NCBI GenBank assembly: GCA_037043015.1
Contig: CM073325.1
Coordinates: 7,667,001-7,731,000 of the forward strand
DNA length: 64,000 nucleotides
Direction: 5' to 3'
From: Bryum argenteum
Lineage: Eukaryota > Streptophyta > Bryopsida > Bryales > Bryaceae
The position numbers were made by a program, and so were the translations under genes. Within the stretch, counting starts at the first letter, position 1, and each line of letters opens with the position of its first letter. This document shows, piece after piece, positions 20,381-63,857 of this stretch. The notes under the pieces are model-generated. The model was not told the DNA's origin and searched no databases. It worked only from the letters and a program-made list of their open reading frames with translations.

Positions 20381-22270
20381 CCTTAAACACCATTTATAAA
20401 CGACATTTTGGATGAGAGGCAGAGACTTTGAAGAGCCATAACTTCTTTATCCACACTCATTTTTAGAGAAAAGCACTTGGATTGGGTCCCAAATGAAGTC
20501 TAGTTTGCCTAGTATAAATTGCTAACCGATAAAATAAATCATGATTAAATGGCGTGCATTTTAGTGAAGGTAGCTCTTCTTTTTGAGTTTTCTAACATGG
20601 ATGATGTTTTACCATTGTGAGGCAACTATGGGAAATGAAAAATACTTCTTCATGAATTCTTTTACATAATTATGATCTTAAGCAGAAATCTAACAACTTT
20701 GTAGTTGGAAGATTTTTGATCCAAAAACTTTTGATATTGGATTTTCAATGATGTTTCAACAATAAAAAAAAGTTAAAAAGTGGATGATTTTTAAGGTGCT
20801 ATATCTCCTTCATCCACCGTTGGATTTTAGCTTTGTTTTGTGTGATAGGTTCTAAATAGAATGTAGTTTAACCCCTAAAAATCCAGGAAAACCGATTTGG
20901 TTTTCTGAGATTTCGGGCAGCTCATTTTAAGCATTTAAATTGATATTTTTGCCTAAGATTTTTATTGGGTGCTCCCCATACAGTAATGTTTATGTGGTAA
21001 ATTTTTCAAAGTCAAATTTTGATTTTAAAACCTTCACCTAGAAATTTTAGGTTTCAAGTCGAAAACGGGTAGTATAAAATAATTTTTTTGAATTTTTTTT
21101 TTAGAAATATGTTCATTACCAAATTACTATTCAAATTTCAAAGTATCCGAAGTCAAAAAGTTTACCAATTTTACAAGGGCAGCCTCCAAAACTTTCAAAA
21201 ACAATCTTCACAATTTCTAGTAATTTTACAATTTTTTCTTTCAAAAATTGCCAAAATTCGAGATTTTGAATTTTTTCCAAGATTTTTTTTCTTCAAAATT
21301 CACATTATCATAAATGCACTTTCTCACCGTCGAGATTTTTCTCAAACTAAATATATCATATGTGGTGCTTGTTTACTATATGGTTGTCTTTTGACCTTCT
21401 TTCATAAAATATTTTACATTAAGGTCAAAAAGTGGAATTGGTCTCTAAAATTTTGCATGAGCATACCCAACTTGATTACCTACATGAAAAAAAATGAGGG
21501 AAAAATATTTGGAATAACAATCATCAAGTTGCCCTTGGCACCATTTAGACAATGCCTCTCACGCAGCGGCAAAGAAAAGTGTTGGTCAAACTTTGATTGT
21601 TATGATCTCACAAATGACAAACATCCAACGGTTGAAATTTTGACCAGTTCTTTGTATACAAGTAAGGTACAAGATCTTACGGTTCAAAGTTCAAAACCAG
21701 AATAAAAAGTTTCTCCATTTCCCCATTTACCAATGAAGGTGAAAAATGGCAGTTTTTGGTTCTGGAGGTCGAGGAAACCCCTGGATTTTTAGGGGTTAAG
21801 TGATAAAAATCCTAACTCAATCAAAGGTGTTTTGAAGATAAGGCAAGAATTTGAGTGCAATGGGTGTAGATTTGGACCCTTTTTCCTTTGTAAATATTGT
21901 AATAGTTTTCACCCTTGCATAGCTATTATTTGAGCCAATAAATTTTTGATGAATTTTTCTGTACAATAGTGTTGTTGAGATGAGGTTGGACAACTTTGTA
22001 GTTGGTTAATTTTCATTGCATATGTTTGTTGATAGCATTTTCACTTCAAAGTGAGAATTTTTAAAATTCAATGATCTTTTATGCGTACCAATATCTTACG
22101 ATCTTGCGATCTATGGGACCTCATGAATCCAAATTTGATCCACATTACCTACAACAAGTATACTACAATATGACACAAATGAGATATAAATAGCTTGCCT
22201 TCGTTTTTATTCATGACGCTTTGCAAAAAATTATGTTCCTAGGCTCTAAACCCCCTTGGGCGTTTAAGGG
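20381..22270. mobile_element. TTAA-flanked piggyBac-like non-autonomous element (outer)
   Basis: Left end CCCTTAAACACC and right end, reverse-complemented, CCCTTAAACGCC, with TTAA on both sides (20377-20380 and 22271-22274). TTAA duplication with CCC termini is the signature of the piggyBac superfamily. It contains a second TTAA-flanked element at 20872-21795. No transposase is recognised. Confidence 0.72.
20872..21795. mobile_element. TTAA-flanked piggyBac-like element nested in the outer one
   Basis: Perfect 16-bp terminal inverted repeat CCCCTAAAAATCCAGG, TTAA at 20868-20871 and 21796-21799, total 924 bp. The interior is very AT-rich with runs of A and T. A 205-codon open frame inside it (21088-21705) is compositionally biased and matches no family I know. 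Confidence 0.8.
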
Positions 22271-22309
22271 TTAATGCACGTTGCAATTAGCTTTTATTTT
22301 GTATTTTTG

Positions 22310-23640
22310 TCACACTTTAGAATGAGCTAAAGTAGATCCATATTTTTTAAATAGAGTAACAAATCGAGTTGAAATAAATGGTGGATGAAAAGGGACATAG
22401 CTCCTCAAGACCATGACTTTTTTGGTTTTCTCATGCCTAACCCCTAATGCTGAAATGAGCCCTAATAGGGTCGATTTGACTTTGGCCACCCACCCTCTCA
22501 TTTACTAAATATATATTTATGAAGTTAAAACTATTTACAAAAGTTTTTCTATACCTTTCCAAAAAGTAATTTCGAGCTTCAAAGTTCCTCATACTTTAGG
22601 AGACATTCATAGTCAAAGTTTGAAAACACTATTCCAAATTTGCTTCAGACTACCCAAACCATGGTATATGCTCATTTATTCCAAAAAATTGCCTAAAATC
22701 GTAGTAACTTCACAAAATATTACCAAAAATTGATTTTTTTTTAAAGTTTTTTGTTTTGTTTTGTTTTGTTTTGTTTTGTTTTGTTTTGTTTTGTTTTGTT
22801 TTGTTTTGTTTTGTTTTGTTTTGTTTTTGTACATGTAGAAGAGGTACTTAGTCAAAATCTAACCGTTTGGATTTCCAAGAATTTTTATTGTCAAAGACCA
22901 GGCTTTGTGTTTGCATTTCAACATACCTCCATGTGAATAATCCAACATTTCTATAGGTGGCGTAGGTCTAATAAGAGTAGAAATTATACAAACGTAATTG
23001 TAACTTGCTTAGGAACAAGGATTTGAAGAGCCTCAATTCCAAGTTATTCTTGAAAGAGGTTTTTTTGGCTCAAAAAACACTTCAAACCTCTTTACAACGA
23101 GGAAACAAAACTTTTTTTTCAACTTTGAACAATTACATTTTCACGATTGGTAAGGAATTCGAAATCAATATTTGGTGTGCACATACATGTACAAGTTAGG
23201 TACGAGATCCTACAATTACATACTCAAAAAAATTCTCATAACTTTACAATTTGCACCTTGCCATATTGAGGCTTTTTGGCAGTTTTGAGGCCTTACAAAT
23301 CCATTTCCAGATTACTTGGGTAAAGAGTTTTCCAACTAAAAAGTTGTTGGACTTCATCTTAAATTCATACTTGTATAGTGTTATTTCATAAATAACTAGT
23401 TTTGATTCAAATCATTGGATTATATGGTAATACATGCATTTTGTTTCAGAACCCTAAAACAAAAAATGATTGCACGAATTCCATTCCATAATTTTATAAT
23501 ATCTCAAATGACTCTCTAAATTTAATCACTTAAATTTAGACTTGATTTGGAATCCAACCAAACAATAAAAACGAATATCAAATTAAGAAGTGATGGCAAA
23601 AGTTTAAGCTAGTCATTCGAAATGTTGACTTTCAACATTT
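22310..23640. repeat. AT-rich DNA with a (TTTTG)n microsatellite
   Basis: The microsatellite runs from about 22748 to 22828, roughly 16 units. The remainder is AT-rich without supported genes. Confidence 0.7.
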
Positions 23641-23659
23641 GGCATATATAGGGGTTAAC

Positions 23660-24560: not shown

Positions 24561-24566
24561 ATCTCC

Positions 24567-24859: not shown

Positions 24860-24976
24860 TACCTTGAAATCACACTCCCCCACCCCAGGGTTCGGAAAGT
24901 TTTTTGAGTAATAACCGGCACTTCCCACACACGATCGGTTTTTCACATATTTTTTTCGGCAATTACCTTATTTTAT

Positions 24977-25235
24977 CCCCTAAAGGTCCTTGATACAAAA
25001 TTGTTTAAATTATCAAAAGAACCTTCTTCTACTTCAGGTGCAAAGAAACTCAATCTAAGCATTGATTAGAAGATCCAACCGTAGGATCTTGAAGTTAACT
25101 TGACCCTTTTCTCGAATGTCAAATTTGAACCGTTAATTTTTCTCCAATTTTGAGATTATAATGGTCAAAGTTGGCTGAATTTTCTCCCTGTGGAAATTCC
25201 AAAAAGCGATTTCCGCTTTCTTGGACCTTTAGGGG
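24977..25235. mobile_element. Small piggyBac-like MITE flanked by TTAT
   Basis: Perfect 13-bp terminal inverted repeat CCCCTAAAGGTCC. Both flanks read TTAT (24973-24976 and 25236-25239) in place of TTAA. Size 259 bp. The termini resemble the nested element at 20872-21795. Confidence 0.65.
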
Positions 25236-25963
25236 TTATATTGAGAATAGAAATTTATATGTAATTTTCATCGGTTTTTAGTTGGTGGTTTCATAAATGG
25301 GCCGACTAGTGTGCAAAATCCATCGGCTGATAATGAACTAGCTGTCGGTTTTTCTCAATCATTGCCCCACCCTTCTTAAAGGCCCCTCACGCACCAAAAT
25401 TGAAGATGAATTAGTCCATGCACCAATTGCAAGTAGAATATCAGATTTAGTCGACTAAACTGGAGGGCCATTTTCTTGATGCGCCAAAGTAGAGAGTGGA
25501 TGAGAAGGGCCTTTGACATTTCTCATCCGTTTAATGCGTGTGTCGGGCCCTTGGCAAGCATGAGTGCCGATGCTCTTTTGATTTGGTTCTTCCAATGGTA
25601 GATGACATGAGCTTTCCCATGAGCCTTGAGGTGCCGGGAGTGGTTCAGAAGAAATCTCGCCAACGCTGCCCGCGAAAGGCTCTCTACTAGTGATGGCTTC
25701 TTGGCTTCGGCCAATGAGAGACATGTCCGAGAAAGCGATGATTCTCACACACAACTGGATAAACAAGAATGTTGTCTTGTTGCTACGAGGAGAGTCAGAA
25801 CTCATCGCAAATGAGGTGAATTTGACGAGACCAAGAGCTCGTAAGGGTGAGACGGGAAAATGACGTGAGTTTTGGTGGTCGTGAGTTGGGGCGAGAAAAT
25901 TGAGGTGCTCCCTCCAAGCCCTAGTCGTGGGCCGCTTCCCAAGTCATGCAGGAGATGCTTTAA

Positions 25964-26901
25964 CCCTTTCATGACCAATCAACCAAATATGGTCGCTGAA
26001 GTGTGGTTATTCCATGATTGAGTAGAATCTGTGTAGAAACAACAAAATATTAGAGAACAACGCCAGAAGAGGAGTGTGTGGTGGATCTACTACACAAAAT
26101 AACGATGCATTTGGACTCGTATTCCGCGTGGTAGAGCTGTCTATACATGGTGATGAGTATGAGATACGGTAGCTGGTTTAGAAAGAAGTGAGAAAGATTC
26201 AGGAAATACGGCTGTCGAGGACACATGACACCAATTCTAAGGGTCCCTTGGGAATATAGGAACATGGGGGTACTACTCAATTGGCTCCGTCGTCAAAAGA
26301 AGTGTTGATTTCTTTTGGCAACCCTACACCGTCTATAAAAGCGTATACGTTTGTACAACCTGAAATCCTCTCCAAAAAGAATCAACACATGTTGTTTGCA
26401 CACTGATTCTACGTCAAGGCTCGGCGTCTGATGAATGTGACCATGTTTGATTTTTCAATTTGACCATATTTGCTACGATATCCCATGTATTTCTCGTACG
26501 CTACCGTATACAAGGAATTGGGTTCTTGGTCTCTTTTCACAATTTCGGTTTCATAAATGCTCGAAATGCAACGCTCATGGTGTGGTTGGATAGATCTTCA
26601 AACTCTCTACAATATTGACCACATGTGTTTTGCCCAAATCTGGATATTCTGGTCTCTAATTCTAGTAAAAAGCTTCGAGGTCATGTATACGCTATGTACT
26701 ACACTTGACTTGGAACATCATAATACTCTAGTTCATACGGTAAATCTGACCCATGTTTGGCGACTAGCATATTTGAAGTTCACTACACATTTATACGTTC
26801 GGATCTTAATTTTGACCCTTCATTTGTTCGATGCACTCCAAAATACATCCAGACACCTCAAAAAAACGTCGACTTCCAAAACAGGAGTGGTTATGAAAGG
26901 G
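25964..26901. mobile_element. TTAA-flanked piggyBac-like element in RLK unit 1
   Basis: Ends CCCTTTCATGACCA and, complemented, CCCTTTCATAACCA, with TTAA at 25960-25963 and 26902-26905. Size 938 bp. The matching place in unit 2 (near 42914) lacks it, giving an approximate empty site (CTGA where TTAA stands here). No transposase recognised. Confidence 0.8.
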
Positions 26902-26912
26902 TTAAACAACCC

Positions 26913-27673: not shown

Positions 27674-27682
27674 TATATATAA
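27674..27682 (+). promoter_or_regulatory. RLK1 TATA box
   Basis: TATATATAA, about 410 bp before the ATG. The corresponding unit 2 site (44043-44048) reads TATAAA. The intervening leader contains a diverged internal duplication (27735-27828 and 27896-28000) built around CCACCAAGTTGCA and ACTGGCC. Leader assignment is inference. Confidence 0.5.
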
Positions 27683-28084
27683 CCCATATAAGGATGGGCT
27701 CACACGGAATCCAGGTTAGAGAAAGACTAGTTCGCCATAGCTCAGTCTTCGAACCCACCAAGTTGCAACTTGTGCACTGGCCGAGTGAGAGTTGACCGCG
27801 TGCAGACAGAATTGCATTTAAGTTGCGCACCAACACTTTCAACTAGCTGCTGAATCGATCACCTATCCGAGGTTTCTAGTTGTCTGCCGATCCCTGATAG
27901 CTCAGTCTTTTGTTAGTTCCCGGACACGTCGATCGATCCCACCAAGTTGCAGACAATTCGTACACTGGCCGCCGACAGAATCGTGTTTGCAGCAAGTTGC
28001 AGAACAGTTGCTGCTGAACAGAGTACTTATCCTGGCTCAGTGTTTGAGCTTCGCTGTCGTTAGACTGGAGCATGCACCCGAGCT

Positions 28085-31000
28085 ATGGCCGTTCGGCACT
28101 TCTTCGTAGCGGTCTTGCTAGTACTACTCTTCTGGATCTCGTCTGCTCCTTGTAACGCGCAAGGGGTATCGCAGTCCCAAGTATACTTCGAGGAACACTG
28201 TAAGTTCGTTTCGCTTTTTCAGACTCTGCAATTGTTGCTTCAGCACTTGGATACTTTCGTAACTAAGGCGCTTATGATAATCGAAGTCCTCATGAGGAAT
28301 CCGTGACACCATTCAGGCTGTCTGAATTAAAATTCTAGCTGAATATCAAGTTGTCTGTGTTTCTAGGTTCCCATTTCAGTAGCTAGTCCAGATATGAAGC
28401 TTCATAAAAACTCTGCCATGGTTGCGCCGGCACTTGCGGTACTTTCTGTGGTGCTTTGTGGATCGTAAATCGACCTGTTTTTGTGTCTAGTGGCTGCTCT
28501 GCAAGCTTTGTGGAACAATTGGAACAAGAGCACTCCCGACACTGCAAGCAACTTGGCAGGCTGGAGCTCCACGCAACAGTACCCTTGCAATCAGTTTATT
28601 ATCGGTGATGTACCGAATTGGCGTGGAGTGGAGTGCCTCACTACCATCAATTGTAAACCGGTCCCCAACGATACTACGCATGAAGACTGCAGTGCTTTCA
28701 TCATCGGCTTGTGAGCACTCTGACCAGTCTACGATTTGTTGCTATTTACGTCTTTTCAGGATCATGATGAAATAACAGAGAATGATTGTATACCGGCACT
28801 GACAGGACCTTGAACAATGCATCCATTGACGGCCACTTACCACCTGATATTGGCAATATCAGCACACTGACCACATTGTGAGTTGCCGACGAACCATTTC
28901 TTCCCTCCCATACTTATCACATATATTCTACTTCCTCTGTCTCATCATAATTGTAGAGTAGAACTTATCGTATATATTCTACTTCCTCTGTCCCGTAATA
29001 GTTGTAGAGTAGGTTCTCTCAGAAGGAGTAGCCGTTAGCCGGGTGATCTAACGAATAGTTGTAAGTCAGCTTAATGAAATGGTTGAATTAGCGATTGATT
29101 CTGAAAGTTTAGGATTGTGTTCAATTAAGAGTCAAAATGTTACCTACAAAATCACATACTTAGAATGATGTCTAAGCATCCCGTAGCTATCATGCACAAA
29201 TTATGGAATGGTCTTATATATGAAGGGGCGAAGAACAATTGGATGATTCTTGACTCTTTCCAAACAATGATTTGTACATTAGATTTACAAATTTAGTTTT
29301 TAAACAAGATTCAAAATTGAATTGTAGAGAATATTCTTGAGCTTGGTGTATCGGTGTTTTTGAACGACAAGGTGGTTGCATTTACATGTTTTGTAATAAA
29401 GTTTGTGATATATTTAAGCATCAAAATATCTTGTACATCTTGTCGGTCAATGTTCAAGAGTCTTGAGAAATGGCAAGTAGTGTATCTAACCTTTCGGTAG
29501 TTTTGATTTTAGGCTTATCGTTAGAAAGAGGCTGCCCTCTTGATTGTTGACGATGACATTTCTCCTTGTGCGTTGTTGCAGAGAGTTGACCGGAAATGAA
29601 AAACTAACAGGGCCTTTTCCTAGTACTTTGAGAAGTACTCAACTTGTTACATTGTAAGTCTTACCAATGATTTTTTAACATATAGATTTTTCATGTTAAT
29701 CCTAGGTGATATAATTGTGAGATTGTGGATGCTCATTGTAAAATGCAATGCAAAACCTTCATCAAGTTTGTCATGTTTTTTCTCATTTTGTTGCAGAGAC
29801 ATTCGTGACAATGATTTCTATGGTGCATTTCCGGACTTTGGAAATTTCGAATGGCCTCAAACATTGTAAGATAATTTTAGTTTTGAGTGCCTTTGAGTTT
29901 ATTTTGTGTTTAGGTAGATATTGTTGAAATGTTAGTGCATGGATTTTCTATGTTGTTTTTGTGTAGACTCCATAGTTGTTTTTTTTGGTTCGGTTCAAGA
30001 TAATTATTGCCAAATTCTTCAAAGCTTCAAACTCATCGAGTGTTTGACTTGATGGGTACCACTTGAATGGAATGCCTTGTAAGGAGAATGTCAACCGTTG
30101 GTTGACATGTAATAATGCATACATGTTCCATGATTGTACTAATGTAAACGCAATTGTTCTGACATGAGTGGGTGTGATTGCACAATAGGATCATAAGTGG
30201 CAATCGCTTTAGTGGCAAATTTCCATCCGACCAATTGCGAACTATGCAATACCTCCAGACATTGAGTTTGGAAAGGAATGAGTTTGAAGGAGAAGTACCT
30301 TACCGTGCATTTGAAAATAAAACACAACTTGTCAATCTGTAAGTACTTAAAGTATTGCATACTTTGGTTTATATTTTAGAGTGTCTAGCATCTCTTACAT
30401 GCATCAATAAGCTGCCTCTTAGGTAATGTGAAGAAATTTTCATTTTTTCAAATAGTTCTATGGTACCTTGTCTATCTTTACTTGAGTCACGAAGTCTTTA
30501 TTTCAAAATTAGATGTGAGTATTACAAAAGATTTAGCCTAAATTTTACAAAAGTTTGTTGTTGAATGTAGGGATTTATCTGACAATAAGTTCAATGGAAC
30601 TTTGCCAAATTTTTCAGTGATCAACTTCCTTCAACATTTGTGAGTTGTTTCTATCGCTTTTATTCATTCTTTGACATTCTCAATTGAGGACTTGATAAAC
30701 TTATATATTCTTTATTCACTTCACTTTGTCTCGAAGAGGATTCATGTACATTTATTTAATCATTTTATCAAAGTTCCATTAGTTAGAGCTATATATGATT
30801 TGGAAATTTATATAATGTGAAATGTTTGTGAGCCTCTTGGTATATTCTCAAAATTGTACATGTGATGAGTGTATCATGCCTATGGCTTGCTTGACATTGA
30901 GTTGATATAATACTAATATAAAGTCTAACATCTGGACTCACTGATCATGTTGTTGATATCTGCACTTTGTAGGGATGTATCAAACAACACATTTGTGGGA

Positions 31001-34000
31001 TCGTTGCCTGATTTGACAAAGATGATATCTCTATTGACTGCGTAAGTCTTGCATTTTGTTAAATATTGTCATCTCTTTCTCAAAATTGATTTGTAGTATG
31101 GAAAATCATTGTCTCGCTTTGAATCCTAAAATTGATTCAAAATGGAAGAAATGCCTCTGATTGCCAAGCTTTTATTTACATTTTGGTTCATTTAAATGAA
31201 TCATATTGAAAATTATTCAGTTGTTAAGATAGTTCCTCAAATCATGATGTTTCCTTGTAGGAGGTACTTAAGCATTTAAGGTTCTCAAACTTGTAAACAA
31301 CTTAATATGAGTCTCAATTGATGGTTAATCCTTTTACAGTTATTCTTTTTGGTTTTATCACTTGATGAAAGATCAATTTGCAGTACTAAAGAAAATCTCA
31401 AAAAATTTTGGGCGCTTGTTCACCTTGTTGTACATTGCCACCTTCAACGAAGTATTGTAGACACAAACAAGAGATATATATTGCTGACAATGTCTAGTAC
31501 TTGTTGCTTGTTACAGGGATTTTTCCAACAACAAACTTGATGGATCTGTACCAAATCTTACTTTGATCACAAGCATCCAACATTTGTAAGTGGGCATTTT
31601 CCTAAGATCTTTTACAATTACAATTACCAATACAGAGTATCTTTGTTTGCCTTTGTTTGTACAAATATATTCTTAGAAGTATTATTAACATTTTAAATGT
31701 TGAAACAATCAAGATAATGTCCTTGATGGAAGTACCCTTGGATGTATTTCCACATTAAAAACTTCAAATTATATGGTATTCTTTAGCACGTTTATATTGT
31801 ATATGGTATCCTTTAGCAAGTTTTAAGGGAATTACACTATCAATTGGGATCATTACAAAATTAACTCCTTACTTTTTTATAAATAAATTAAACTTCTCAC
31901 TCTTCAAGATTTATTTACTTATTTATTTATTTATTTATTTATTTTTAAATTTTATATTGTACGTTTATTTTCAATCATATGAACATATCTCAAACCTCAA
32001 AATACAAGAATTTTATCATATTCCAATCATCATGATATAGAAAAAGCCAAGTTTTACACAATCAAATAAGGAGTTACATAATTTAGTTTAAAACAACCAT
32101 ATTTTATTTTATTTTGATTTATTTATTTACTTGTTTTGTTTTGGCCTACCCAAAATTTAGTAAACCCAACTTCCATAAAAAATTACTCATTTTTATTTTT
32201 ATTTTTATTTTTTTACAGGAATTTGAGTCGGAATGCATTTACAGGACCAGTAGTGTTATCTCCTCTTGCAACAAATTCAAGCCTTTCAGTGGTGGACTTA
32301 TCTTACAATCAATTGAAGGGTTCCATAGACTCTTGGAATGAATTCGGACTTCTCTCTCTTCAAGAATTGTAAGTTTCTTTTTTGCTACCCTAGTTTCAAT
32401 AAAAAGGGTACTATTTGATCTTTTACTTCAAATATATAAAATAATGACTATAAACATGTTTGGTGTAGTTATCCATTACTTACAATATTTGCTTATTTTT
32501 GGATGTTGCAGGTACTTGGATGCCAACAATTTCACCGGGACTTTGAACATTAATAAACTCGCGGAGTTGGGTTTACTTAGAACAAGAGTAGCAAACTCAT
32601 CAGGATTCTCATCAGGGATGTTGAGAGTTGTATCATTGATTAACAACAGCATCGGCGATATTGTTTATGATCAAGTCGATATTGAAGAGGTTGCTACAAT
32701 CTTTAGGTGAGAATATGTGATAAGGCATTAGGGAGAAGTTGCAACATGTTGTTATACTTAAATCACCTATATTTTTTAACAATCTAATAATATTTTAATG
32801 AAATATTTAAGTAAGAAAAGTCATAATAGTTCTAGTCAATGAAATTTTGTTAGTTTGTAATCATACTATAATACTAACTTGTAGTACTGTACTTGGGCTT
32901 GTGTAGATTACAAGGAAACCCATATTGTGCTTCACCAGATGCTAATGATGGAACAAGATGTTTTTGCAAACAAATCTGCTTCAACTCAGGTATCAAAGTG
33001 TAGACCATTCAAATAGAGTCCGTACACTTTCACTCAAAGTGCATATAGGTTGATAATATAAATCTAAGAATCATAATATCACTCATTATGATATAGATTA
33101 TCTTTTCCAGCTGAATTTAGATTGAATGGATATATACTTCAAAATTATCTCATGTTCATCATATAGTTGTACTAGAAGTATTTATGTTGGTAATAGCCTA
33201 ATAAACGATCTTGTTTTGAACATGTATGAGAAGTAATATGGTATGTAGTAATTTGTAGCAATGATTGTTGTGAATGTCGCATAATTCTAGATAATAATTT
33301 CTAATTATGGTTTGTTAAAGAGTTGTTATTTTCTAAGGTTTCTTTCTTATAAAACTTCCTCTACACATCCATGACCTTTGAAACAATGGGTTTTTGTTTA
33401 GTCAAGATCACAGAACCAAGACCATCGCAAAATTATAGCAATAGTCGTGGGGACGGTGGTATCATGTTTGGTGTTCCTTTTGATCATCCTCGTGGCGTTA
33501 TATCGTTACAATAGGAGATATCAACGGTATCTTGAGCTCCAAGTCAAAGAAAGTAAGCGTAATCCAAGCTTGTTGTATAATTTCTTTTACATGGATACCA
33601 CATCTACGACTTCCTACACTCTAACAAATATAGTATCTTCATATTCAATGTCCATGTCTAAGTTTAAGTTTGTAGTTGAGATGTATTTATCTCCATACAC
33701 ATATTTGATAGTTAGTCTTCCTTGGATATATCTCAAGCATTATAGTAATTTATTATTATACTATTTATGAAGTATGATTAAGCATGTATATTTGTGATGT
33801 AGGATTTGATGAGGCTGAAGTGAAGCCAACCATATTCCCCTTCCAGCAGCTTAAGACTGCCACCCGGGACTTCCATCCGGATACAAAGTTGGGCGAGGGA
33901 GCTTATGGAGCAGTTTACAAGGTGAATAATCTTTGTTATTGTAGAAAATGTGGCTCAATGTTGAATAGCAATTACTTATGATGAATTATGTATTAACATT

Positions 34001-35520
34001 TGATTATTTGGTTTCTTGTAGGGTGTATTACCAAATGGAAGTGAAGTGGCTGTGAAGCAATTATTTGCCAAGACAACTCAAGATATTGATGACTTTTTGA
34101 ATGAGGTGGTTATGTTGACTGGGATGAAGCATCGAAACTTGATGAATCTGAAAGGATGTTGCGTACGAGAACAACAAAGGTTGTTGGTGTACGAGTATGT
34201 GGATAACCATGACATTGATTACGTTCTTCTGAGTGAGTTCAATTGCCAACACATGCATTTTTTCACTCTGTTTCCTATGTTTTGGAGTCACAATGATCTA
34301 TGTGCACAGCTATGTGCACACATAATTCAAGCGTAAAATAGCATAATTCCTACTCTTGAATCAACCATCTTTTATAAATCTCATTTCTTTGAACAAGATT
34401 GCCTATTTTCTTACAAATTCGAGATTATTTTCTTTTCTATATCGATGTTTTCATAACTATGCTTTCATGCTCATCTAACTCTCACCATGCATGCCTATGT
34501 TGCAGATGGAAAGCAGAAGGCCCTCTTGAGCTGGCCAGTGCGAAAGAAGATATTGTTGGAAGTTGCTCGTGGCTTGCATTACTTGCATGCTCTTGCTCAC
34601 CCTAAAATCATCCATCGAGACATCAAAGCGAGTAACATCTTGTTAACTCAAAATTATGAAGCAAAAATAGCAGATTTTGGGTTGGCGTTGTTGTTCCCGG
34701 GTGAAGAAAGTTACATCATGACCAAGCACGTTGCTGGAACACAGTGCGTTCCCTACCGTATCTTCACCATTTCTTGCTCGATTGGCATTTGGATTGTTTT
34801 CATGTAACCTTGGGCTAATCAAGAAAACTTGCATTACTAGGAATTACAGAAATCTCAAATTACGGGTGTGTATGTACAGGGGGTATATGGCACCAGAATA
34901 TGCATCATACGGTCAGCTGAGTGACAAAGTGGATGTTTTTAGTTTTGGGATTTTGTGCCTTGAGGTTGTTAGTGGTCGAAGAAATATCGATCATGAGGCA
35001 CTCCCCAACCAAACGTACCTCTCCAAATTGGTGAGTATTTTAGAATATGTATTCTGCTTCCCTTTGTGTGCCATTTTCCATAGTAGTTCAGAGGCCTGAC
35101 GTTCTATTCTGCCTGTAGGCATGGGAGGTTCATCGTGAGGGGAGGCTGATGGAAGTGGTAGATACAACACTCTCCTTGCAAGATGACGAGATCCTCGAAG
35201 TGGAGCGAGTGATCAACATTGCTCTTCTGTGCATCCAAAACGCAGCAGAGCAGCGTCCAAGCATGGAGCGAGTGGTTGCCATGTTGCAAGGCGGTACCGC
35301 TGCAGAAGTGGCCATGCCCCAAGCATCTCACGAGGAGGCCTACTTGGAGAATATCCGCTTGTTTGCCATGGGGAAAGGCTCCACTCTCGCCACTGTCAAG
35401 GAGGAGGTTCTCGGGGAGTCGTCTTCTTCTTTGAGTATTAGGAGGTCGTTTAAGAAGAGTGGGTTTGATGTTTTGTCCACTGGGGCGTTGCTTGAGCTTA
35501 GTGAAATCAAAGTTAGATAG
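28085..35520 (+). CDS. LRR receptor-like protein kinase RLK1
   Basis: Eighteen exons: 28085-28199, 28491-28710, 28806-28877, 29582-29653, 29797-29865, 30189-30338, 30571-30639, 30973-31041, 31517-31585, 32219-32368, 32512-32706, 32907-32989, 33421-33552, 33803-33921, 34022-34232, 34506-34743, 34880-35030, 35119-35520. They splice in frame to about 861 residues. Signal peptide [17 protein letters not shown]; Cys-paired cap with NWRGVEC; about nine LRRs, mostly one per 69-72-nt exon ([14 protein letters not shown]); membrane segment [16 protein letters not shown]; kinase with GEGAYGAVY loop, VAVK lysine, [14 protein letters not shown] and GYMAPEY. All catalytic residues are present. Exon 13 must use an acceptor 19 nt inside the ancestral one to keep frame. 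Ligand unknown; subfamily uncertain. Confidence 0.88.
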
Positions 35521-35639
35521 CCTCACTTGCTGCTACTACAAGAGAGTGTAGCTAGTGTTTGATGGTTTTGAATGGTTTGTGTATATTGTTTCATCATTCT
35601 ACAAGAAGATATTAGAGTTTGAAGTGGACTGAGAGTTTG

Positions 35640-36155
35640 AAGGAGAAGCCCGAGGGGGATGCGGAGCTTGCTGCTGCAGCAGAGGTACTAGAAGGGGAGT
35701 CTTCATATCAAATGGTGAAGGCGAATTAGGCTTGCTTGCTAGGCTCCTCCTGAAGCTGCTCTGGAAGCAGGTATATTAGTCACCAAAACCCGAAAAGCCT
35801 CCGGATGAAGCAAAGGATGGTGTGGAGGGTGGGAACTAGGCGTGTTATTTTCCGAGCGAGGCTCCAAACAATGAGCCTGAGCTTGCGCTGGGAGTAGTAG
35901 CAGCCAAGGATTGAGCGAAAGAGAACAAACTTGGAGAAGGAGAGGCGCCAAAGGGGGACGGGGAAGAAGAAGCGGTTACTGGTGGTGGTTCCAGAGCATG
36001 ATGCACCGAAGAACCGACCCCCTCCAGAACCAAATCCTTGTGGACTAGTACTTCTTGTTTGGGTAGAAGAACACAATGCCGAGCCTGACGATGCACCGAC
36101 AGAGAACGATGTGGGCGTGCTCCGCGACGAAGCCCGAAACCCTGTGAAATCAAGT
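35640..36155 (-). pseudogene. Antisense NUP62 fragment downstream of RLK1
   Basis: Complement of the RLK strand matches the first ~260 codons of NUP62 (compare 4938-5705), including GFGSGGG, SSSPSPFGASPSP, LFSFAQS and SASSGSLFGASLG blocks. The central FG repeats (around 5056-5236) are missing and the frame is broken several times. The other copy is at 53936-54493, so the transfer predates the unit duplication. It starts about 120 bp after the RLK1 stop. Confidence 0.85.
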
Positions 36156-36225
36156 GTGGATAAAGAATGACAAAATTGATTTGCAAACCTTCAACACACC
36201 AGTCAAAACACCCTCCACCACCAAT

Positions 36226-36373
36226 AGATGCATCGAGGAACTCCTGAGGAGTCTTCGTCTTCCTTGAGTAGGAAGTTGTTTAAAAAGTCGTTCGGAAAGA
36301 CTGGAATTGATGATTTGTCGATGATTTGTTGACCACGGCGTTGCTTGAGCTTAGTGAAAATCAAAGTTGGGTA
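36226..36373 (+). pseudogene. Older RLK C-terminal tail after the NUP62 fragment
   Basis: Diverged copy of the last RLK codons (compare 35401-35520): the GGAGTCTTCGTCTTCC, AGGAAG, TTTAAAAAGTCG and GCGTTGCTTGAGCTTAGTGA blocks are recognisable. It has frame damage and a small duplication (GATGATTTGTCGATGATTTG). It indicates that the NUP62 piece lies between two RLK 3' ends. Confidence 0.75.
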
Positions 36374-37039
36374 GCCTAGTAGGTGCTGCTGCGACTCGAA
36401 GAGTGTGTAGCTGGCAATTTTGAATCGTTTTAAGGTGTTGTGTATATTGTTTGATCATTTTTCAAGGAAATGTTAGATTCTGAAGTGGATTGTACTGTAC
36501 ATATAACTGTCAAATTACTCAACTGATTCGGTACTCCCCTGAATCTTGCTAAAAGCATACAAGAAAGTGTTTGGATTGTGATTGCTAGTACCTGTTTTAC
36601 TGAAAATGTAGAGTGATTTCTGTGCACAGAATCACTTAAGAAGATTGATCTTTCCACTTGCAATTCGGACAAGATATTGGACAACCAGATAAGAAAGGAT
36701 GTAGTTTTGCCATCACAAATATTGTGACCTACACCATGAAACAAGATAGCGTAGTTACTAGATTTTTGCTAACAGAACCACATGATCGTAGTATGATCAT
36801 GGCAAGTCTGGACGTGTTTGTGGAGTTTACTATAAAGTGCCGTCATGATAAATAGCTACTGTTACACTACCATTGCAAACCGAACACAGATTGCTACCTG
36901 CAATCATGCACCGAGATGCACATGATAGGGAAGAAATCACGCTTTACAAGTTTTGTGTCTACAATCGTTCTGATGAACATGTGTGTTCCGTTCGAGATCA
37001 GCAACACTTTCAGAACCAAATTGTCGACGTATTTGGCTT

Positions 37040-38000: not shown

Positions 38001-39660
38001 CTAAATAGCTGAATTACGGAAACAACTCATTGGCATGGTCCAACTAAATGGATACTTTTCTAAGGCCTCAATAACATCGGACACAATCAACCTTTTGGAC
38101 ACATCCGGGTCCTGGAGGCCTTTTAATTTGAAGCTGAGATACTCGTGATTGTGGGCGCGGTCTAGGCGGTGTGGCATTAAGTATTTCATATCGCACTCTT
38201 ATTGCCAAATGTGTTGTGCTAACGACCCGGCGGAGAATGCATCGGCTGCCTTGGAATATATGTGTTTGCATTCCATAACCTCAAGGGGATTGTCAGATTC
38301 GCGTGGACCATACAAAAACCATAATTCCGGTGCCACAAATCTTTGCCAAGTGCGTTGTTCATCCAACTCCTCTTCCTTCGCATATCTATACTTGGATGGC
38401 GCTTGTTCTACCACTCGACTTGAAATCCCCCAGTTGCAAAGCTCGATGTACACCGTCTCTGGTTCCCAATCATCGAAATGCAATAGAACATTGGCTGGAG
38501 TAATGTCATTGTGTAGATAATTTTGTTCACGACACTTTTCCACAATGACAAGCAACGACAATGCCAAATCAAGTCCGTCGTTTACGAAATGTTACAACCC
38601 AACGTAGTTGTATATCGGATAGCCCTGACTTGAGCTCTTTTGGAATGTCGTCATATTACAAGTGCTTTGGGATTTTCCGATTGATATGAATGTCAAAATC
38701 TTTGTAGCAACCTTCGTTCCACCATAGCGAAAATCCATCCATTGTTCTAGGATGCAAGTACGATAGTCTGATGATTCTAGGGTACTTCATTGGACATCCA
38801 CCCGCCTCATTTACGATTGCCATGCGCTTCTCCCTCTCGTTGTTCACATTTGTCAATTGTTTACGCGCAAATGGAATCCAACTAGGAATATGTTGAAGTT
38901 TTGTAAGCACCACCTTAGTCACCTTCCCATATCCACCTTGGATACGTTGTCCTGGCATAGATACCACGATAACGGTTGATTCTAGCCACTTGAAAGTTCC
39001 ACTGTTGCAATGAGACGTAACAAAATCCTCGGCTTTTAATTTCCATGTCTCATTCCTCTTCCCAGGACCTTTCGAAAAGAGTTGACCAAAAGTTTTCATT
39101 GTATCTAGCTTTGTAACTAGTTCTTCATCTTCAATTGTCCAGTTGCTCTTATGTGTCAATTTCTTCCCCGAAACATACGTCCATGCGTCCACGGTGTTGG
39201 TAGTCAACTCTACCACTCTGAGGTTCAACCATGCACCGTGGTCGTAGAAGTTGGTCCAATCACAAAGTTCGTAATTGTTTTCAAAACAACGCTCCAGGTA
39301 TTGGTGAAGCTCCTGACACAAATTGTGGTATCCTTCATCATTCGCCCCAATGTAAGACCTATGCAATTCTTGCATAGTTCGTATCTCATAGAAATGTATA
39401 CCGCTCCGTCGAGCAAAATTGAGATAGTCCTCGGTTGGTATAAGTGGTGTCTCTTCCTCCTCTAGCAAGATCGAATTGTTCTTTTTTGACCCCTTACTTT
39501 TTTTCTTTTTTTCCTTTCTATTCCGTGATCCCGATGAAGAAGGGTTTGTAGATTTTGTCTCCTTTGCAATTTCCTCTCTTTCCTCAAGACGGTCAAGGAA
39601 GGTTTCCAAATCTTCATTTCCATGTCGCATACTCGAACCTTGGCTCCCTTCACCCTCCAT
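38001..39660 (-). pseudogene. Protein-kinase-like gene, decayed, inside the CACTA block
   Basis: Begins MEGEGSQGSSMRHGNEDLE, followed by a Lys/Ser-rich region (KEKKKKSKGSKKNN) and an unrecognised ~150-residue domain. A kinase N-lobe follows (QGGYGKVTKV loop, FARKQL lysine). After a stop at 38656-38658 the catalytic part continues in another frame: NYLHNDITPANVLLHF (HxD..N motif), ELCNWGIS in the DFG position, FVAPELW for APE and a C-lobe end DPDVSKRLIVSDVIEALEKY. At least three in-frame TAA codons and one frame change are seen, so it is a pseudogene. Asn in place of the DFG Asp would suggest weak or no catalysis even when whole. No known family name. Confidence 0.7.
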
Positions 39661-39836
39661 TTCGAATCTGAGAAAATAACGGCAAAAACTCCTTCCTCGT
39701 GCTGAAAACACACCGCCAAGTGCCCACACTAACTCAATGAAGAAGTAGTGTTTGGCATCTAGCGGAGTGAGGTGAATAATGAAATAACTTGGCTTTTATA
39801 GGGGAGGGGAGTGTGGGAAAAGGAAAAGGAGGGTGG

Positions 39837-44109: not shown

Positions 44110-46024
44110 GGGCCGGTTTACACTACGGTGGAGAAGGCCTCCGGACGGTCAAGAATGCTTGGCCAAGACATGGTTATATGAGGCATATGGTGAATGTGCT
44201 GGAAAAGAATTAAATGCAATAATTTTTTTTTTAAGGAGTCTTGACCGGTTGTAGTCTAAACGCCTAAAGGAGAAGATTAGCAGTGATGTCCGCCGGAGAA
44301 GTCCACCGGTGAATAGAAGCTCACCTAATGGTAAAGATTTTTTGTGATAAAAAATCATAATTCTCTATATTCACAATGTATGAAAATACATCAAAAAAAA
44401 ATTCTTTTCATAAAATTCAATATGCATATGTATGGCAATTTGAGTAAAGTTCGAATTAAATTTTATGATCAACTTGTGCCGTAGGGCTGTAGACTAATGA
44501 TTTCTATGGTTCATGTTTACTTTAAATAGTATAGAAACATGTCATGGTCATATTATGTTCAATGTTATTAAAAAATAGTAATGCAGAGCTTGGTTTTGAA
44601 ACTTCTTCTTCTTTGAGGCACTTGATGATGCGGATTGAATGGTAGTAACTCGGTTGAATTTAAGCTTCATTAGCATTTGTTAAATTTTATTGTCCTCACA
44701 CACTAGTGTTGTCCACTCACGTGTTTCATACCGAAACCAGCTTGATGCCACCAATGATCAATCAAATCATAAAGCTTACATTCATGGTGGTCATTTCATG
44801 TAATCAAGTTAGCAAGTTTGTCCTCCTTGTAATGTTGAAAACTAAATCAAATTTCTTTCAACATACCTTGGCCGTACATGAAAATCCAAGAACTGTCTCT
44901 ATCATTTGTGCTTAAAGTCGAACCCATATATCATTACCTGATAAATATCAATTTTAAAATCCCACTTGCTCATGTGCACGAAAAGATGATAAAATGCCGT
45001 AAAAAATGAGCTCTAAGCCTTCAGAATGGCTTTGAAAATTTTACTACAGCATGTGGAGCTAGAGTAACAGATGTATATATACAAGACCAATAAGATTGGG
45101 ACATAAGGAGAAGGTGGGGATAGATGGCTACCCAACGGAGATTGATTAGTGGTCATGAGGTACAAGGTTCAAGTCTTTTTGATTTAGGGCATCCCCATTA
45201 GCCACGTGAAAGGCCCTCGCCAGCGGAAATTGGCAGGCCCGCACTAAAACGCGGAAATTGGCAGGCCCGCACTAAATCAGTACCCCAATGGCCGCGCCAC
45301 CCCTCCCTCCACCTTTCCGCGGCACTCTATTGCAGCCCCGCTCACGCCAAGTTTTCTCTCGTTGCAGGGAGACATTTTCCACACTTTATTGTGTAGTCAA
45401 CCCCAGGATGGCAGCTCTGTCACTGCGACTCTGATGAGAAAGAAAGCACGATCACAAATGCAAGGCCCCACCCTCCCTAGCCACACCGTCCCCAACCACG
45501 AGGATATGATGAACGGCCTGGCCCCGCCACGTCACCACACCAAGGCTGTTTGAGGGGCTCTGTAGCGAGCTTCCATTAGGGCCAAAACCCTCCATTTTGT
45601 CGCACGCTCAGGTACGTCCCTCGCCATTATCTGTTAGCGCGTCCCAAATTCTCAGTGGCGCGGAACCATTGGGGATGCTCTTATACCCTAGGTTTTTGAA
45701 AGTCAATCTGAAATCTACAGCCGTGATTCTTTTAATTTTTTTTTTTTTTTTATTGACGAGAGCTTCTCCGGAACAATGATTTCTTGTCCGGCCTCAAGAG
45801 GATAGACAAGAACTCAATGTTTTGGAGAAGCTCTAGAGCAAAAAGTACCGTCACCTAAGTAGCCATGTCTTTTTTTTTCATTCATGACAAAAGTTCACCA
45901 CATTTAATATCTTCACCAAATGTAAACATCCACCGGTCAAAAATGACATCTTAGACCAATCACATTGAAGAATCCCTTTTTTGCCTTGACAGGTGGACTT
46001 CTCCACTGTAGTCTAAACCGGCCC
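44110..46024. mobile_element. PIF/Harbinger-like element in the RLK2 leader
   Basis: Terminal inverted repeat of ~30 bp: GGGCCGGTTTACACTAC at left, GGGCCGGTTTAGACTAC complemented at right. The target duplication reads TCA (44107-44109, 46025-46027), or CTCAG if the outer G is assigned to the flank. Unit 1 has the intact site CATAGCTCAGTCTTCG at 27735. Size 1915 bp, no transposase recognised. It contains a nested MITE at 45187-45680. Confidence 0.88.
45187..45680. mobile_element. MITE nested in the 44110-46024 element
   Basis: Ends GGGCATCCCCATTAG and, complemented, GAGCATCCCCAATGG, with TTA on both sides (45184-45186, 45681-45683), a PIF/Harbinger-type duplication. The 494-bp interior is GC-rich compared with its host and includes a 28-bp tandem duplication around GCGGAAATTGGCAGGCCCGC (45224-45281). 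Confidence 0.78.
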
Positions 46025-46353
46025 TCAGTCTTCGATACCACCAAGTTGCAATTTGTGCACTGGCCGAGTGAGAGTTCACCGCTTGCAGACAGAATTGCAT
46101 TTAAGTTGTGCACCAACACTTTCAACCAGCTGCTGAATCGATCACCTATCCGAGGTTTCTAGTTGTCTGCCGATCCCGAATAGCTCAGTCTTTTGTTATT
46201 CCCCGGACACATCGATCGATCCAACCAAGTTGCAGACAAAACCGTGTCGGCAGCAAGTTGCAGAGCAGTTTCAACTAGCTGCTCAACAGAATACTTATTT
46301 CCGGCCGAGGTTTTGAGCTTCGTTGTCGTTAGACTGGAGCAGGCACCCGAGCT

Positions 46354-53820
<7,467 letters not shown>

Positions 53821-53935
53821 CCTCACTTGCTGCTACTACAAGAGTTGTAGCTAGTGTAGATAGTTAGGAATGGTTTGTGCATATTGCTTCATCATTATAC
53901 AAGGAAGTATTAGAGTTTGAAGTGGACTTAGAGTT

Positions 53936-54493
53936 TGAAGGAGAAGCCAGAGGGGGATGGGGAGCTTGCTGCTGCAGCAGGAGTTGAGGATGCAGCAGGG
54001 GCACTAGAAGGGGGAGTCGTCATACCAAATGGTGAAGGCGAACTAGTCTTGCTTGCTAGGCTCCTCCTGAAGCTGCATCGGAAGCAGGTCTAGTGGCTCC
54101 GAAACGCGAAAAAGCCTCCGGATGAAATAGATGATGGTGTGGACGCTGGGAACTGGGGCATGTTTTGTTCCGAGCGAGGCTCCAAACAATGAGCCTGAGC
54201 TTGCGCTGGGAGTAGCAGCAGCCGAGGATTGAGCGAAAGAGAACAAATTCGGACAAAGAGAGGCGCCAAAGGGAGGCGCGGAAGAGCCAAAGGGAGACGG
54301 GGAAGAGGAAGCGGTATCGAAAGGGTTACTGGTGGTGGTTCCAGAGCTTGATGCGCCGAAGAGCCCACCCCCTCCAAAACCAAATCCTGGTGCAGTAATA
54401 TTTCCTGTTGGAGTAGAAGAACCAAATGCTGATCCTGACGATGCATCGACAGAGATCGATGTGGGCGTGCTCTGCGACGAAGCCCCAAACCTT
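53936..54493 (-). pseudogene. Antisense NUP62 fragment downstream of RLK2
   Basis: Closer to NUP62 than the unit 1 copy: 53940-54057 is nearly identical to 4940-5050, and 54060-54480 matches 5239-5705. The section equal to 5056-5236 is missing, consistent with recombination between FG-coding repeats. It has an additional frame break and no start context. Begins about 115 bp beyond the RLK2 stop. Confidence 0.88.
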
Positions 54494-54527
54494 CAACACA
54501 CCAGTCAAATTACCCTCCACCAACAAT

Positions 54528-54662
54528 AGATGCATCGAGGAAGTCCTGGGGGAGTCTTCGTCTTCCTCGAGTAGGAAGTCGTTTAAAAAGTCGTTCAAGA
54601 AGACTGGGTTTGATGATATGTCGACTACGGCGTTGCTTGAACTTAGTGAAAGTCAAAGTTAG
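54528..54662 (+). pseudogene. Older RLK C-terminal tail in unit 2
   Basis: Reads [35 protein letters not shown] and ELSESQS then stop, clearly related to the RLK C-terminus [17 protein letters not shown]. Open over 44 codons, but no upstream kinase exon is attached. Counterpart of 36226-36373. Confidence 0.8.
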
Positions 54663-55435
54663 GTAGCTTAGTGAGTGCTGCTGCGGACTCCAAGAGTCTG
54701 TAGCTGGCAATTTTGAATCGTTTTAAGGTGTTCGTGTATGTTGTTTAATCATTTTACAAGAAAATGATAGATTCTGAAGTGGATTGTCCTGTACAGTACA
54801 CTTAACAATCAAGTTACTCAACTGATTCGGTACTGCCGTGAATCTTGCTGAAAGCATGCAAGAAAATGATTACATCATTGTAAATTGAACTTTCCAGTTG
54901 CAATTCGGACAAGAGATTGGACAACCCGATAAGAAAGGATCTAATCTGGCCATCACAAATACTGTCACCCACACCATGAAACAACATAGCGTAGTTACTA
55001 GATTTTTGCTAACAGAATCACATCATCATAGAATGATCATGGCAAGTCTGGACGTGTTCGTGGAGGTTACTGTAAAGTGCCGTCATGATAAATAGTTACT
55101 GTTACACTACCATTCAAACCGAACACAGATTGCTACCTGCAATCATGCACCGAGATGCACATGATAGGGAAAAAAGCAGGCGTAACGGAGGCAATGCTCA
55201 TATAATTGCACTCTCTCGTATTCTCAACAGGGAGTCTGTGTTAGCTCACAGCTTTCCTGTTCCTTGACCTACTCAGTAGTCGGGTAACTATATAAAGAAT
55301 CTCCTCACCTTGTCAAAGAATCTCACCTTGTCAACGAATCTTAATTTTTGATCTAACTCTACACAAAGTGGCTCCATAATCTACAAGCAGCTTCGGTCGG
55401 ACCCACTGTTTAACAAATCCTATGGTGAGCTCCTC

Positions 55436-59780: not shown

Positions 59781-59786
59781 TTTATA
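59781..59786 (-). promoter_or_regulatory. Possible DXR TATA box
   Basis: Minus strand reads GCTATAAAGGTTGC about 460 bp upstream of the DXR ATG, with GTGAATTGGATT just upstream. Plausible core promoter giving a ~430-nt leader; not proven. An opposite-strand open frame at 59604-59993 overlaps it and is not supported as a gene. Confidence 0.35.
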
Positions 59787-59999
59787 GCAAAATCCAATTC
59801 ACACCAGGAAACTGCGCATGAAATTAAGAAATGGCCAACCAGAAGTCGTTCCGCGACGGAGACTGGAAAAGAAGACTGGCTTGCAATCTCGCAAAGGATA
59901 GAAGCCCGGGATGAAGGTGGCGTCGCCTTCGTAGATTTTATGTGTGGGGTGTACATGCTGGGGACAAAATCTTCTCCCGAGGCTGATATTTGAGAGTAT

Positions 60000-61815: not shown

Positions 61816-61817
61816 TA

Positions 61818-62251
61818 CCGTACCCGGCCGTCAGGGTCGGCAAAAATTAAATAAAAAAACAGAAGTTGAAAAAGATCGGGAATTATTGGAGAAGAGAGTC
61901 AAAAAGAAAAATTATTCATTGAAGAACATGCCGAATATTACAAAATTGAGCCAAGTTCATGCAGTAAAATCCCAAAATATTGCATACTCCACTTAACTAG
62001 TTGTTCACCTGTTGTGAAAGTTCATAGGGCATTCAATTAGGTTAAGCACACCAAGTCCACCACAAACGGATGAAAAATTAGAAAATTCTTCATTGCCGTA
62101 AACTAGCCTTGTATTAAAGCGCCGAATCTTTTATAATAATTTTTTTGAAACTTTGAAATTTTGATTAATTTCTTGCTGCCATGCCGTACCCACTTTCTCC
62201 ACTTTAATTAATTATTCGGCATGAGATGCCGACCCTGACGGCCGGGTACGG
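61818..62251. mobile_element. TA-flanked MITE, 434 bp
   Basis: Perfect terminal inverted repeat of at least 25 bp starting CCGTACCCGGCCGTCAGG, flanked by TA (61816-61817, 62252-62253). Removing it with one TA restores the local repeated phrase TATGTATCGACTTTTGTG. TA duplication suggests a Tc1/mariner-type origin, though the terminus is not a standard one. Confidence 0.82.
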
Positions 62252-62882
62252 TATCGACTTTTGTGTCTATGTGTCGACTTTGGTTTGTTATGGATTATTA
62301 GTTTTGATCTCAGAAGCAAGTAAGCCAATCAACTTCTCTCTATCCACTTTAGAAGCAAGCAAACCAAGTGAGTTCTATCTTTCAAATTATGTATCGGTTT
62401 TCGTTTATCAATAATAAAAGAGAAGCTTCACATCCAACTTCTAGGCTTCAAGGAAGCAAGTGCGTCACCTTGCTTCGATTTTTGGAATTCGTTCACACAA
62501 ATTTTTGATCAATTGAAAGAGACCAAGCTTTGAAGGCGGCCCTAACACTTATGCAAATCTCTATCCAACACCATTTGTAGTTCCAATTAATAACCAGTAT
62601 TTTGGGTAACAAGTGCATATAACAATAATCTTCATCTAACACTAATCTCCATTTAACACTAATCTACCTATTTAGTGTAATGTACCAAGTGCCAATAAAT
62701 TACACCTTGCTCGAGGGAGGGAGTAAATTATTCTTTGACTTGTATACTTCATCAAACTTACATACAAACAGTATGAAAGTGTAGCTAATCGTGAGAATCT
62801 TAAATAACGTTGAAACCACAGTTGATACCTGCGGACTGAAACAAGTCAACAATTTGCCGCTGAAAACATGAAGAAATGCCGA

Positions 62883-63239
62883 CTACACTACAAGACACAG
62901 ATCTACAAAATCATAGAGTCTATTCAACCTAAGTATGGTAGGTTGATCACATTTCCCGACAATGGTAAAGCTCCCGCAATAAGCGCACTGATCGACATTG
63001 CCGTAACTAAGTAGACAAGCTCGAGTAGATATGGAACCTGCCATTCTACAAACAATTGAGACCGAGCCATACTCCTTGTCTCTCAACAGAGAGGCCCAGA
63101 GAGGTTGAATATTGATCGATAGCGATGGCGGAGGTTCCGAGTACACAGTGATAATGAACAACACGAAGATGATTCGAACTTGAAAGTGGGCAACCATCGC
63201 TACTGCGCCGATTTCACGAACGTCCACATCGCTCCACAT
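62883..63239 (-). CDS. Possible small secreted Cys-containing protein
   Basis: A 118-codon open frame. From the internal Met at residue 15 it would begin MVAHFQVRIIFVLFIITVYS, which looks like a signal peptide, followed by about 84 residues with six cysteines (including QCAYCGSF and VGKC). No family recognised. No conserved neighbour or promoter motif supports it, and open frames of this length occur by chance here. Listed as a candidate only. Confidence 0.25.
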   Translation of the reverse strand: MWSDVDVREIGAVAMVAHFQVRIIFVLFIITVYSEPPPSLSINIQPLWASLLRDKEYGSVSIVCRMAGSISTRACLLSYGNVDQCAYCGSFTIVGKCDQPTILRLNRLYDFVDLCLVV

Positions 63240-63496
63240 CGACTAACAGGAATTTGATTGTGCTAGAGTAAGGTGGCCAATAATGGCACAATTTTCAGCA
63301 TCGAGAATTTTCTTTAGGATTTTACAAGAAATTTTCGTGGCACAAGGAGGTTGGTAGTAAGCTAGAGCAAGTGGAATCATCATTCTTGAACTGTTCTGCA
63401 ATGAATTTTGAATTCTTGAAGTTGGAAATATGGTTGTTCCAAAAAGAAACACTCTGAAATTAAAAAGATATTATGAAGGGTAAGGAGTGATGTTAA

Positions 63497-63857
63497 CCCT
63501 TAAACGCCGAAGGTGACCCGAGGGGTCATGTTCCAAGAGAATCTCCTCTGTAGCTCTCAATGTACTCAACTTTTCACTTATATTTTGATGTCAAACTGGT
63601 CACCTTCTTCTAATGCATTCAAAAAGTGAAATTTTAGAATTCAAATCACAATTTGTATGAGTGATTTTGTGCTTTGAAAGGATTGTGGTAGGTAGGTTGG
63701 GGTTGTACAATACTTGTAGGAGGTTGCAAGCTCATCATTGATTGGATCATTCATGATGCCCAAGTTCAAAAAGTGCACTATTCATCATGCCCACGTGCAA
63801 AAGATGCTCTGATCCAATACTGGGCTGCCCAAAACCGTATAGCTAGGCGTTTAAGGG
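63497..63857. mobile_element. TTAA-flanked piggyBac-like MITE, 361 bp
   Basis: Perfect 12-bp terminal inverted repeat CCCTTAAACGCC, TTAA at 63493-63496 and 63858-63861. The termini are the same as those of the 20381-22270 element, so they are one family. Interior non-coding; 63858-64000 shows nothing. Confidence 0.8.

Follow-up and report, generated by a model that had tools for sequence, protein, structure and literature searches.

The window analysed here is a stretch of 64 000 bp of contig C5 (G000:C5:7667001-7731000), taken from an assembly of 258.8 Mb in 25 contigs, eleven of which are large (C1 to C11), with the other 14 together amounting to less than 1 Mb. It contains five elements, E1 to E5, which have inverted termini starting with CCC and flanking duplications of TTAA, or of TTAT for E3. 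E2 is nested within E1, sitting in a TTAA of the latter. An earlier note on this DNA had described five such elements as a piggyBac family, and all five are present where it placed them to within one base; the right end of E1 lies at 22270 as described, and its start is at 20380, not 20381. The elements are as follows, with the terminal inverted repeat abbreviated as TIR and the miniature inverted-repeat transposable element as MITE; the lineages are those of the transposases discussed below.

E1, 20376..22274 (body 20380-22270), no strand assigned: old, putatively piggyBac-type non-autonomous element interrupted by E2; TTAA at 20376-20379 and 22271-22274; left end akin to the 5' ends of lineage C; lineage A-like right end CCCTTAAACGCCC.
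E2, 20868..21799 (body 20872-21795), plus strand: 924-bp putative non-autonomous piggyBac element; TTAA at 20868-20871 and 21796-21799; 16/16 TIR CCCCTAAAAATCCAGG; left-end palindrome at bp 16-34.
E3, 24973..25239 (body 24977-25235), minus strand: 259-bp MITE; termini CCCCTAAAGGTCC; TTAT at 24973-24976 and 25236-25239; right-end palindrome at bp 17-33.
E4, 25960..26905 (body 25964-26901), no strand assigned: 938-bp non-autonomous element; termini CCCTTTCATRACC; TTAA at 25960-25963 and 26902-26905.
E5, 63493..63861 (body 63497-63857), plus strand: 361-bp MITE; termini CCCTTAAACGCC; TTAA at 63493-63496 and 63858-63861; left-end palindrome at bp 18-32.

All five elements are repeated in the genome. 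The number of candidate places at first look was 2358 for E5, 2273 for E3, 4333 for E2, 180 for E4 and 3699 for the right part of E1; the copy figures that follow come from DNA searches and refer to the best copies among the matches listed, and are thus lower bounds. E5 has at least 43 matches, the top 40 of which are identical at 98-100%, and E3 has at least 41, the others being 97-99% identical with one at 80%. For E2 there are at least 42, with 39 others at 95-96% plus two short pieces, and for E4 at least 40 (the best 40 of the 180 candidates), the others at 93-96%. The right part of E1 has at least 40 matches, with the others 79-84% identical, and the repeat stops at the TTAA of E1 itself. 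Among ten fetched copies per family, which are the best-matching ten and include the window's own, pairwise divergence is 0.00% for E5, with medians of 0.75% for E3 and 2.04% for E2. Genome-wide, the exact terminal word TTAACCCTTAAACGCC occurs 1887 + 1888 = 3775 times, TTAACCCCTAAARRTCC 2183 + 2188 = 4371 times and the E4-type word TTAACCCTTTCATRACC 139 + 135 = 274 times, and each of the three reversed words occurs 0 times. The search for terminal-word families that the earlier note had proposed therefore finds exact ends in the hundreds to thousands, and its description of one family has to be replaced. Copy identity and divergence indicate five or more non-autonomous families of differing age, the youngest of which is very young. 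Judged by copy identity, E5 is the youngest of the five; its family moved very recently, and present-day movement of any of the families is a possibility.

We note that three E5 copies adjoin a second copy 87-91% identical to the E5 of the window (C3:3877226-3877955, C10:10006931-10007671 and C3:12462750-12463487); these abutting pairs look as if one copy landed in the TTAA flanking the other. E2 contains a 210-residue open frame (21073-21705, plus strand) with no Pfam family, which is probably due to chance in AT-rich DNA.

For E5, E2 and E3, 30 copies were fetched, counting the three in the window, and 29 of them lie between two TTAA. The sole exception is the E3 of the window, which has TTAT left and right; its nine fetched relatives have TTAA. 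A second non-TTAA duplication is seen in the transposase element of locus L028 (L028:225-6024), which has TTAG on both sides. Since these noncanonical flanks are identical at both ends, they suggest rare insertion outside TTAA rather than later mutation. The position of E2 can be compared with that in L059, an E1 copy without E2, which has a single TTAA there; the alignment is identical in 715 of 856 columns and leaves about the first 120 bases of E1 unaligned. This single-TTAA site may never have carried the insert. The element of L027 is inserted in a TTAA within an E5-like terminus and has a single TTAA at either end. At L017 a lineage B element lies apparently within an E1-like copy, pieces of which match on both sides (L017:1519-1600 and 7357-7755).

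Transposase genes were sought with the DDE_Tnp_1_7 profile (PF13843), with which 116 of 777 candidates were scored, the 661 others being unscored. All 116 matches are over the cut-off, with a best E value of 7.4e-82, and they are present on each of contigs C1-C11. A hand count gave 93 of the 116 with no stop within the match, and many of the transposase genes are seemingly intact. Among the 20 transposase loci read in detail, both ends were found in 16 (L009, L010, L012, L014-L021 and L024-L028), and these bounded elements are about 4.5-6.5 kb in length; at L009 the transposase element is 2531-7480, and 156-525 is a separate E5-like element. The flanks of the 16 are identical on both sides, being TTAA in 15 and TTAG in one. 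Pairwise identity places the loci in three lineages and two singles, with identities of 27-42% between groups. Lineage A comprises L009, L010, L013, L016, L019, L021, L023, L025 and L026, with ends CCCTTAAACGCCC or close to it, lineage B comprises L012, L014, L017, L018, L020 and L024, with ends CCCCTAAAGATCC or close to it, and lineage C comprises L022, L027 and L028, with ends CCCTTAAGCGGGCC and CCCCTAAACGTTTCG or close to them. The singles outside these lineages are L011 and L015 (CCCCTCAAGGCCC).

The stop-to-stop transposase frames are 469-1331 residues long. The L019 protein matches the structures of Trichoplusia ni piggyBac (PDB entry 6x67, E value 4.6e-30) and piggyBat (PDB entry 9c0f, E value 2.3e-24). 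Using regular expressions on the 20 frames, the first aspartate of the catalytic DDD was found in 19, the second in all 20 and the third in 19; in the two frames thus missed, L011 and L010, inspection by eye shows variant motifs. The C-terminal Cys/His pattern of a Cys-rich zinc domain was matched in 11 of the 20, and among the nine frames without a match some stop early or have variant spacing. The ratio of nonsynonymous to synonymous substitution rates (dN/dS) was computed for nine frame pairs. For the core it is 0.05-0.08 in four lineage A pairs with dS above 1 and 0.15 for L014/L024, and it is undefined for L014/L017 and L017/L020; over the whole frame of L027/L028 it is 0.17. As judged from these frames, the transposase core is under purifying selection. 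In several frames the core is preceded by an N-terminal extension that is conserved between copies, for which dN/dS is 0.15-0.23 in three lineage A pairs, 0.50 for L021/L023 and 0.29-0.42 in three lineage B pairs. On account of these values the extensions are probably coding and constrained. A comparison of the extensions with Pfam gave no family over the cut-off, the matches being to the transposase or weak and below the cut-off, with two pieces having none at all, and nothing was found in the PDB for the extension of L027. For the L019 extension a single weak PDB match, to MITSUBA-1 (E value 0.0021), contained no stretch that passed on its own and was taken as chance.

One end of T. ni piggyBac has a palindrome, within bp 17-33, to which the Cys-rich domain binds as a dimer (PMC7351741). 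We scanned 38 ends, from the five window elements and 14 transposase elements, using a palindrome score of at least 5 as the threshold. The palindrome is centred at bp 25.0 in 13 of these ends and at 25.5 in two more. When similar ends are collapsed, nine of 28 are centred at bp 25 (eight of 27 without the left end of L009, which belongs to the separate E5-like element), and 300 shuffles, which do not remove the kinship between ends of one lineage, give at most 2 and on average 0.17. The transposase elements have the palindrome at bp 25 or 25.5 in 11 of 14 cases, each at the transposase-upstream end. The lineage C elements L027 and L028 score 9 at this position. Its letters vary and the register is kept, as seen in CGTGCCCCTGGGGCACG of L021, AAGCCGAATCGGCTT of L012, ATGTCGAAAATCGACAT of L027 and GAAAACCGATTTGGTTTTC of E2. 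By analogy with the moth element, the bp-25 palindrome is a candidate binding site for the Cys-rich domain in the piggyBac register. Five of the opposite ends (four of lineage A and the right end of E5) carry a different palindrome centred at bp 32, which argues against strict one-endedness.

With regard to partners, E5 carries lineage A ends, and over its leftmost 35 nt it shares 91% identity with the 5' end of L019; E2 and E3 carry lineage B ends. The left end of E1 was compared with the lineage C 5' ends of L027 and L028 and with an E1-like end at L017:7783, and in each case 0 of 200 shuffles were as good. For the right end of E1 the best match is the 3' end of L010 (lineage A), with three of 200 shuffles as good. 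The earlier note had supposed that a transposase source exists somewhere in this genome and had suggested looking for a DDE_Tnp_1_7 transposase with the same termini. Many copies of such a transposase were found, with termini shared with E2, E3 and E5, and the supposition is borne out for these three by the shared ends; for E4 no source was found and that of E1 is uncertain. The two outcomes that the note had named as contrary to its view, an absence of multicopy families and an autonomous partner of another superfamily, are not seen for E2, E3 and E5.

In our view, E1-E5 are very probably non-autonomous members of the piggyBac superfamily that were cut and pasted into TTAA by the piggyBac transposases of larger resident elements. 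The basis for this, read from sequence, is the ends, the target duplication, the empty site, the transposase elements that share the ends of E2, E3 and E5, the DDD, the purifying selection and the near-identical copies. The larger elements elsewhere in the genome would supply the transposase, that of lineage A serving E5 and that of lineage B serving E2 and E3. If T. ni piggyBac is a guide, a dimeric transposase would act on the ends and a hairpin would be formed with the TTAA; excision would be seamless, with the donor site repaired without trace, and strand transfer would insert the element into a new TTAA. At the end upstream of the transposase, the palindrome around bp 25 would be bound by a dimer of the Cys-rich domain. 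As the non-autonomous elements have no transposase gene, they would have to be moved in trans, having kept their ends and, in E2, E3 and E5, also the palindrome.

A number of points weigh against this interpretation. Transposition itself is unobserved, and the copy figures favour young copies. One end only was found for L013, L022 and L023 and none for L011, so that four of the 20 loci lack one or both ends. The core dN/dS of the close pair L021/L023, which has few changes, is 0.26. The interior of E5 does not match L019, and direct parents were not found. The partner of E1 is uncertain since its two ends point to different lineages, C on the left and A on the right. As for the palindrome, L015, L016 and L020 score 3-4 at bp 25, E4 has a weak one and E1 none; the asymmetry between ends is not absolute, with a palindrome at bp 28 of the other (left) end of L017 and one at bp 25.5 of the 3' end of L027; and no second copy of the first palindrome was found at the 3' end in 17 elements beyond what shuffles give, the lowest shuffle fraction being 0.20. 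Lastly, E4 matches none of the 20 transposase loci read, and no partner for it emerged from genome searches with the L011 and L015 proteins, which gave 45 and 42 transposase places.

This last point raises the alternative that E4 alone comes from a different TTAA-using lineage. Four long E4 pairs were located among the first 100 TTAACCCTTTCATRACC places (C2:16142908, C4:4833286, C4:11909850 and C4:24371911), and none of them, as inspected by eye, holds a transposase place among the 116, 45 and 42, which would be in keeping with such an origin. Its CCC termini and TTAA are, on the other hand, those of the other elements, and 661 of the 777 transposase candidates are unscored; we consider a separate lineage for E4 unlikely. 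A more general alternative is that foreign DNA, for example from an insect, was assembled into a plant genome, or that there was one recent horizontal transfer. piggyBac is best known from animals, and the identical E5 copies suggest recency, but the PF13843 matches on every one of C1-C11 and the old E1 copies alongside young ones speak against both versions. In addition, the divergence between lineages and a dS above 1 in four of five lineage A pairs imply long residence or several entries, and we give this explanation very little weight.

That the repeats are chance inverted pairs between TTAA sites was examined using 20 first-order Markov copies of the window, in which TTAA-flanked TIR pairs were scored out of 16. 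TTAA is common in AT-rich sequence, and E1 taken alone has a weak TIR of 11/16, a level reached in one of the 20 controls. At 14/16 or better, however, none of the 20 controls has a pair and the window has two (E2 and E4); E3 also reaches 14/16, on TTAT, in an extra scan of 12 tetranucleotides that covered the window only, without controls. Requiring a CC[CT] start and at least 11/16 gives one match in the 20 copies and five in the window, namely E1, E2, E4, E5 and one E2/E1 cross-pair. None of 200 shuffles fits the lineage C 5' ends as well as the left end of E1 does, the elements are multicopy with alignments that end sharply at TTAA, and the reversed terminal words do not occur in the genome. 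Chance is rejected by the Markov controls and the sharp-ended copies, and its probability is negligible. Kolobok elements could also be proposed as the source, since they share the TTAA-specific 4-bp duplication; they differ by their 5'-RR...YY-3' termini, as given in PMC9587614, from the CCC...GGG found here. Elements with the termini of E2, E3 and E5 moreover encode PF13843 transposases. A Kolobok origin is therefore rejected on termini and partner transposases, being disfavoured for E2, E3 and E5, and is highly improbable.

piggyBac is a working tool of animal transgenesis. T. ni piggyBac has CCC termini and carries a second palindrome copy at its other end; in the elements here no second copy was found at the other end. 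Small non-coding piggyBac-like MITEs are reportedly present in corals, which are animal hosts. The bat is the host of piggyBat. The latter has the same transposase core as L019 and differs in its 578-residue chain. The elements described here are like T. ni piggyBac (PDB entries 6x67 and 6x68) in the TTAA target, the DDD catalytic domain, the C-terminal Cys-rich domain and the position of the palindrome. They are unlike it in the size of the bounded elements and in the frames, the T. ni transposase having 594 residues and several of those here having conserved extensions. Among plants, a repeat table for C-Fern gives 1230 PiggyBac copies in 122 kb (PMC6890710), a longan paper mentions PiggyBac elements (PMC12946498) and a review of plant transposable elements names PiggyBac among the superfamilies (PMC10794571). 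In the titles, term counts and opening lines of abstracts returned by a literature search, nothing described piggyBac as abundant in a land plant; the plant papers, in the parts available, show it only as a superfamily entry, a small repeat count or a single mention.

The genome is plant-like and, as annotated here from its sequence, holds more than one piggyBac family together with the derived MITEs. Its plant affinity is judged from one Nup62-like gene; the eleven large contigs, the small genome size and the gene-poor 44-Mb contig would suit a bryophyte, perhaps a pleurocarpous moss. A plant-like genome whose piggyBac ends number in the thousands, and in which many transposase matches are uninterrupted, would offer native plant piggyBac systems and a test of plant silencing against a TTAA transposon. 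It would also allow the reading of piggyBac ends to be tested independently, the palindrome staying near bp 25 and its letters differing by lineage. We are inclined to go further, with a modest degree of confidence, and to propose that this is a land plant, probably a bryophyte, with a large and recently active piggyBac radiation. Such a radiation would comprise several deep lineages with their own termini serving MITE families, constrained N-terminal extensions unlike any Pfam domain and, upstream of the transposase, an end whose palindrome keeps the moth register; its insertions would be concentrated outside one 44-Mb gene-poor chromosome, and at least one family may still be moving.

Contig C1 (44.1 Mb, 17% of the genome) is nearly free of piggyBac, with 67 of the 3775 TTAACCCTTAAACGCC words, four of the 274 E4-type words, five of the 116 scored transposases and three of 206 element matches among those listed. 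C1 looks gene-poor, because it has 0 of 132 kinase matches among those listed, and it is possibly a U/V sex chromosome.

An Rfam search of the window gave 0 matches, and ten further window frames gave only two weak Pfam matches below the cut-off, both in one frame. There is a 379-residue open frame at 38656-39795 (minus strand) with no Pfam family. A 710-residue frame at 3731-5863 (minus strand) has an Nsp1_C domain (Pfam, E value 3.4e-20) and resembles plant NUP62. The window also contains a 9-kb direct duplication with 92% identity (27741-36572 and 46024-54871), and further duplicated pieces are found at 36644-36942/54884-55181 and 26997-27745/43372-44110. Both copies of the 9-kb duplication include pieces (53938-54489 and 35741-36148) that match parts of the Nup62-like gene (within 4938-5710) at 76-96% identity, and these appear to be a captured or duplicated gene fragment.

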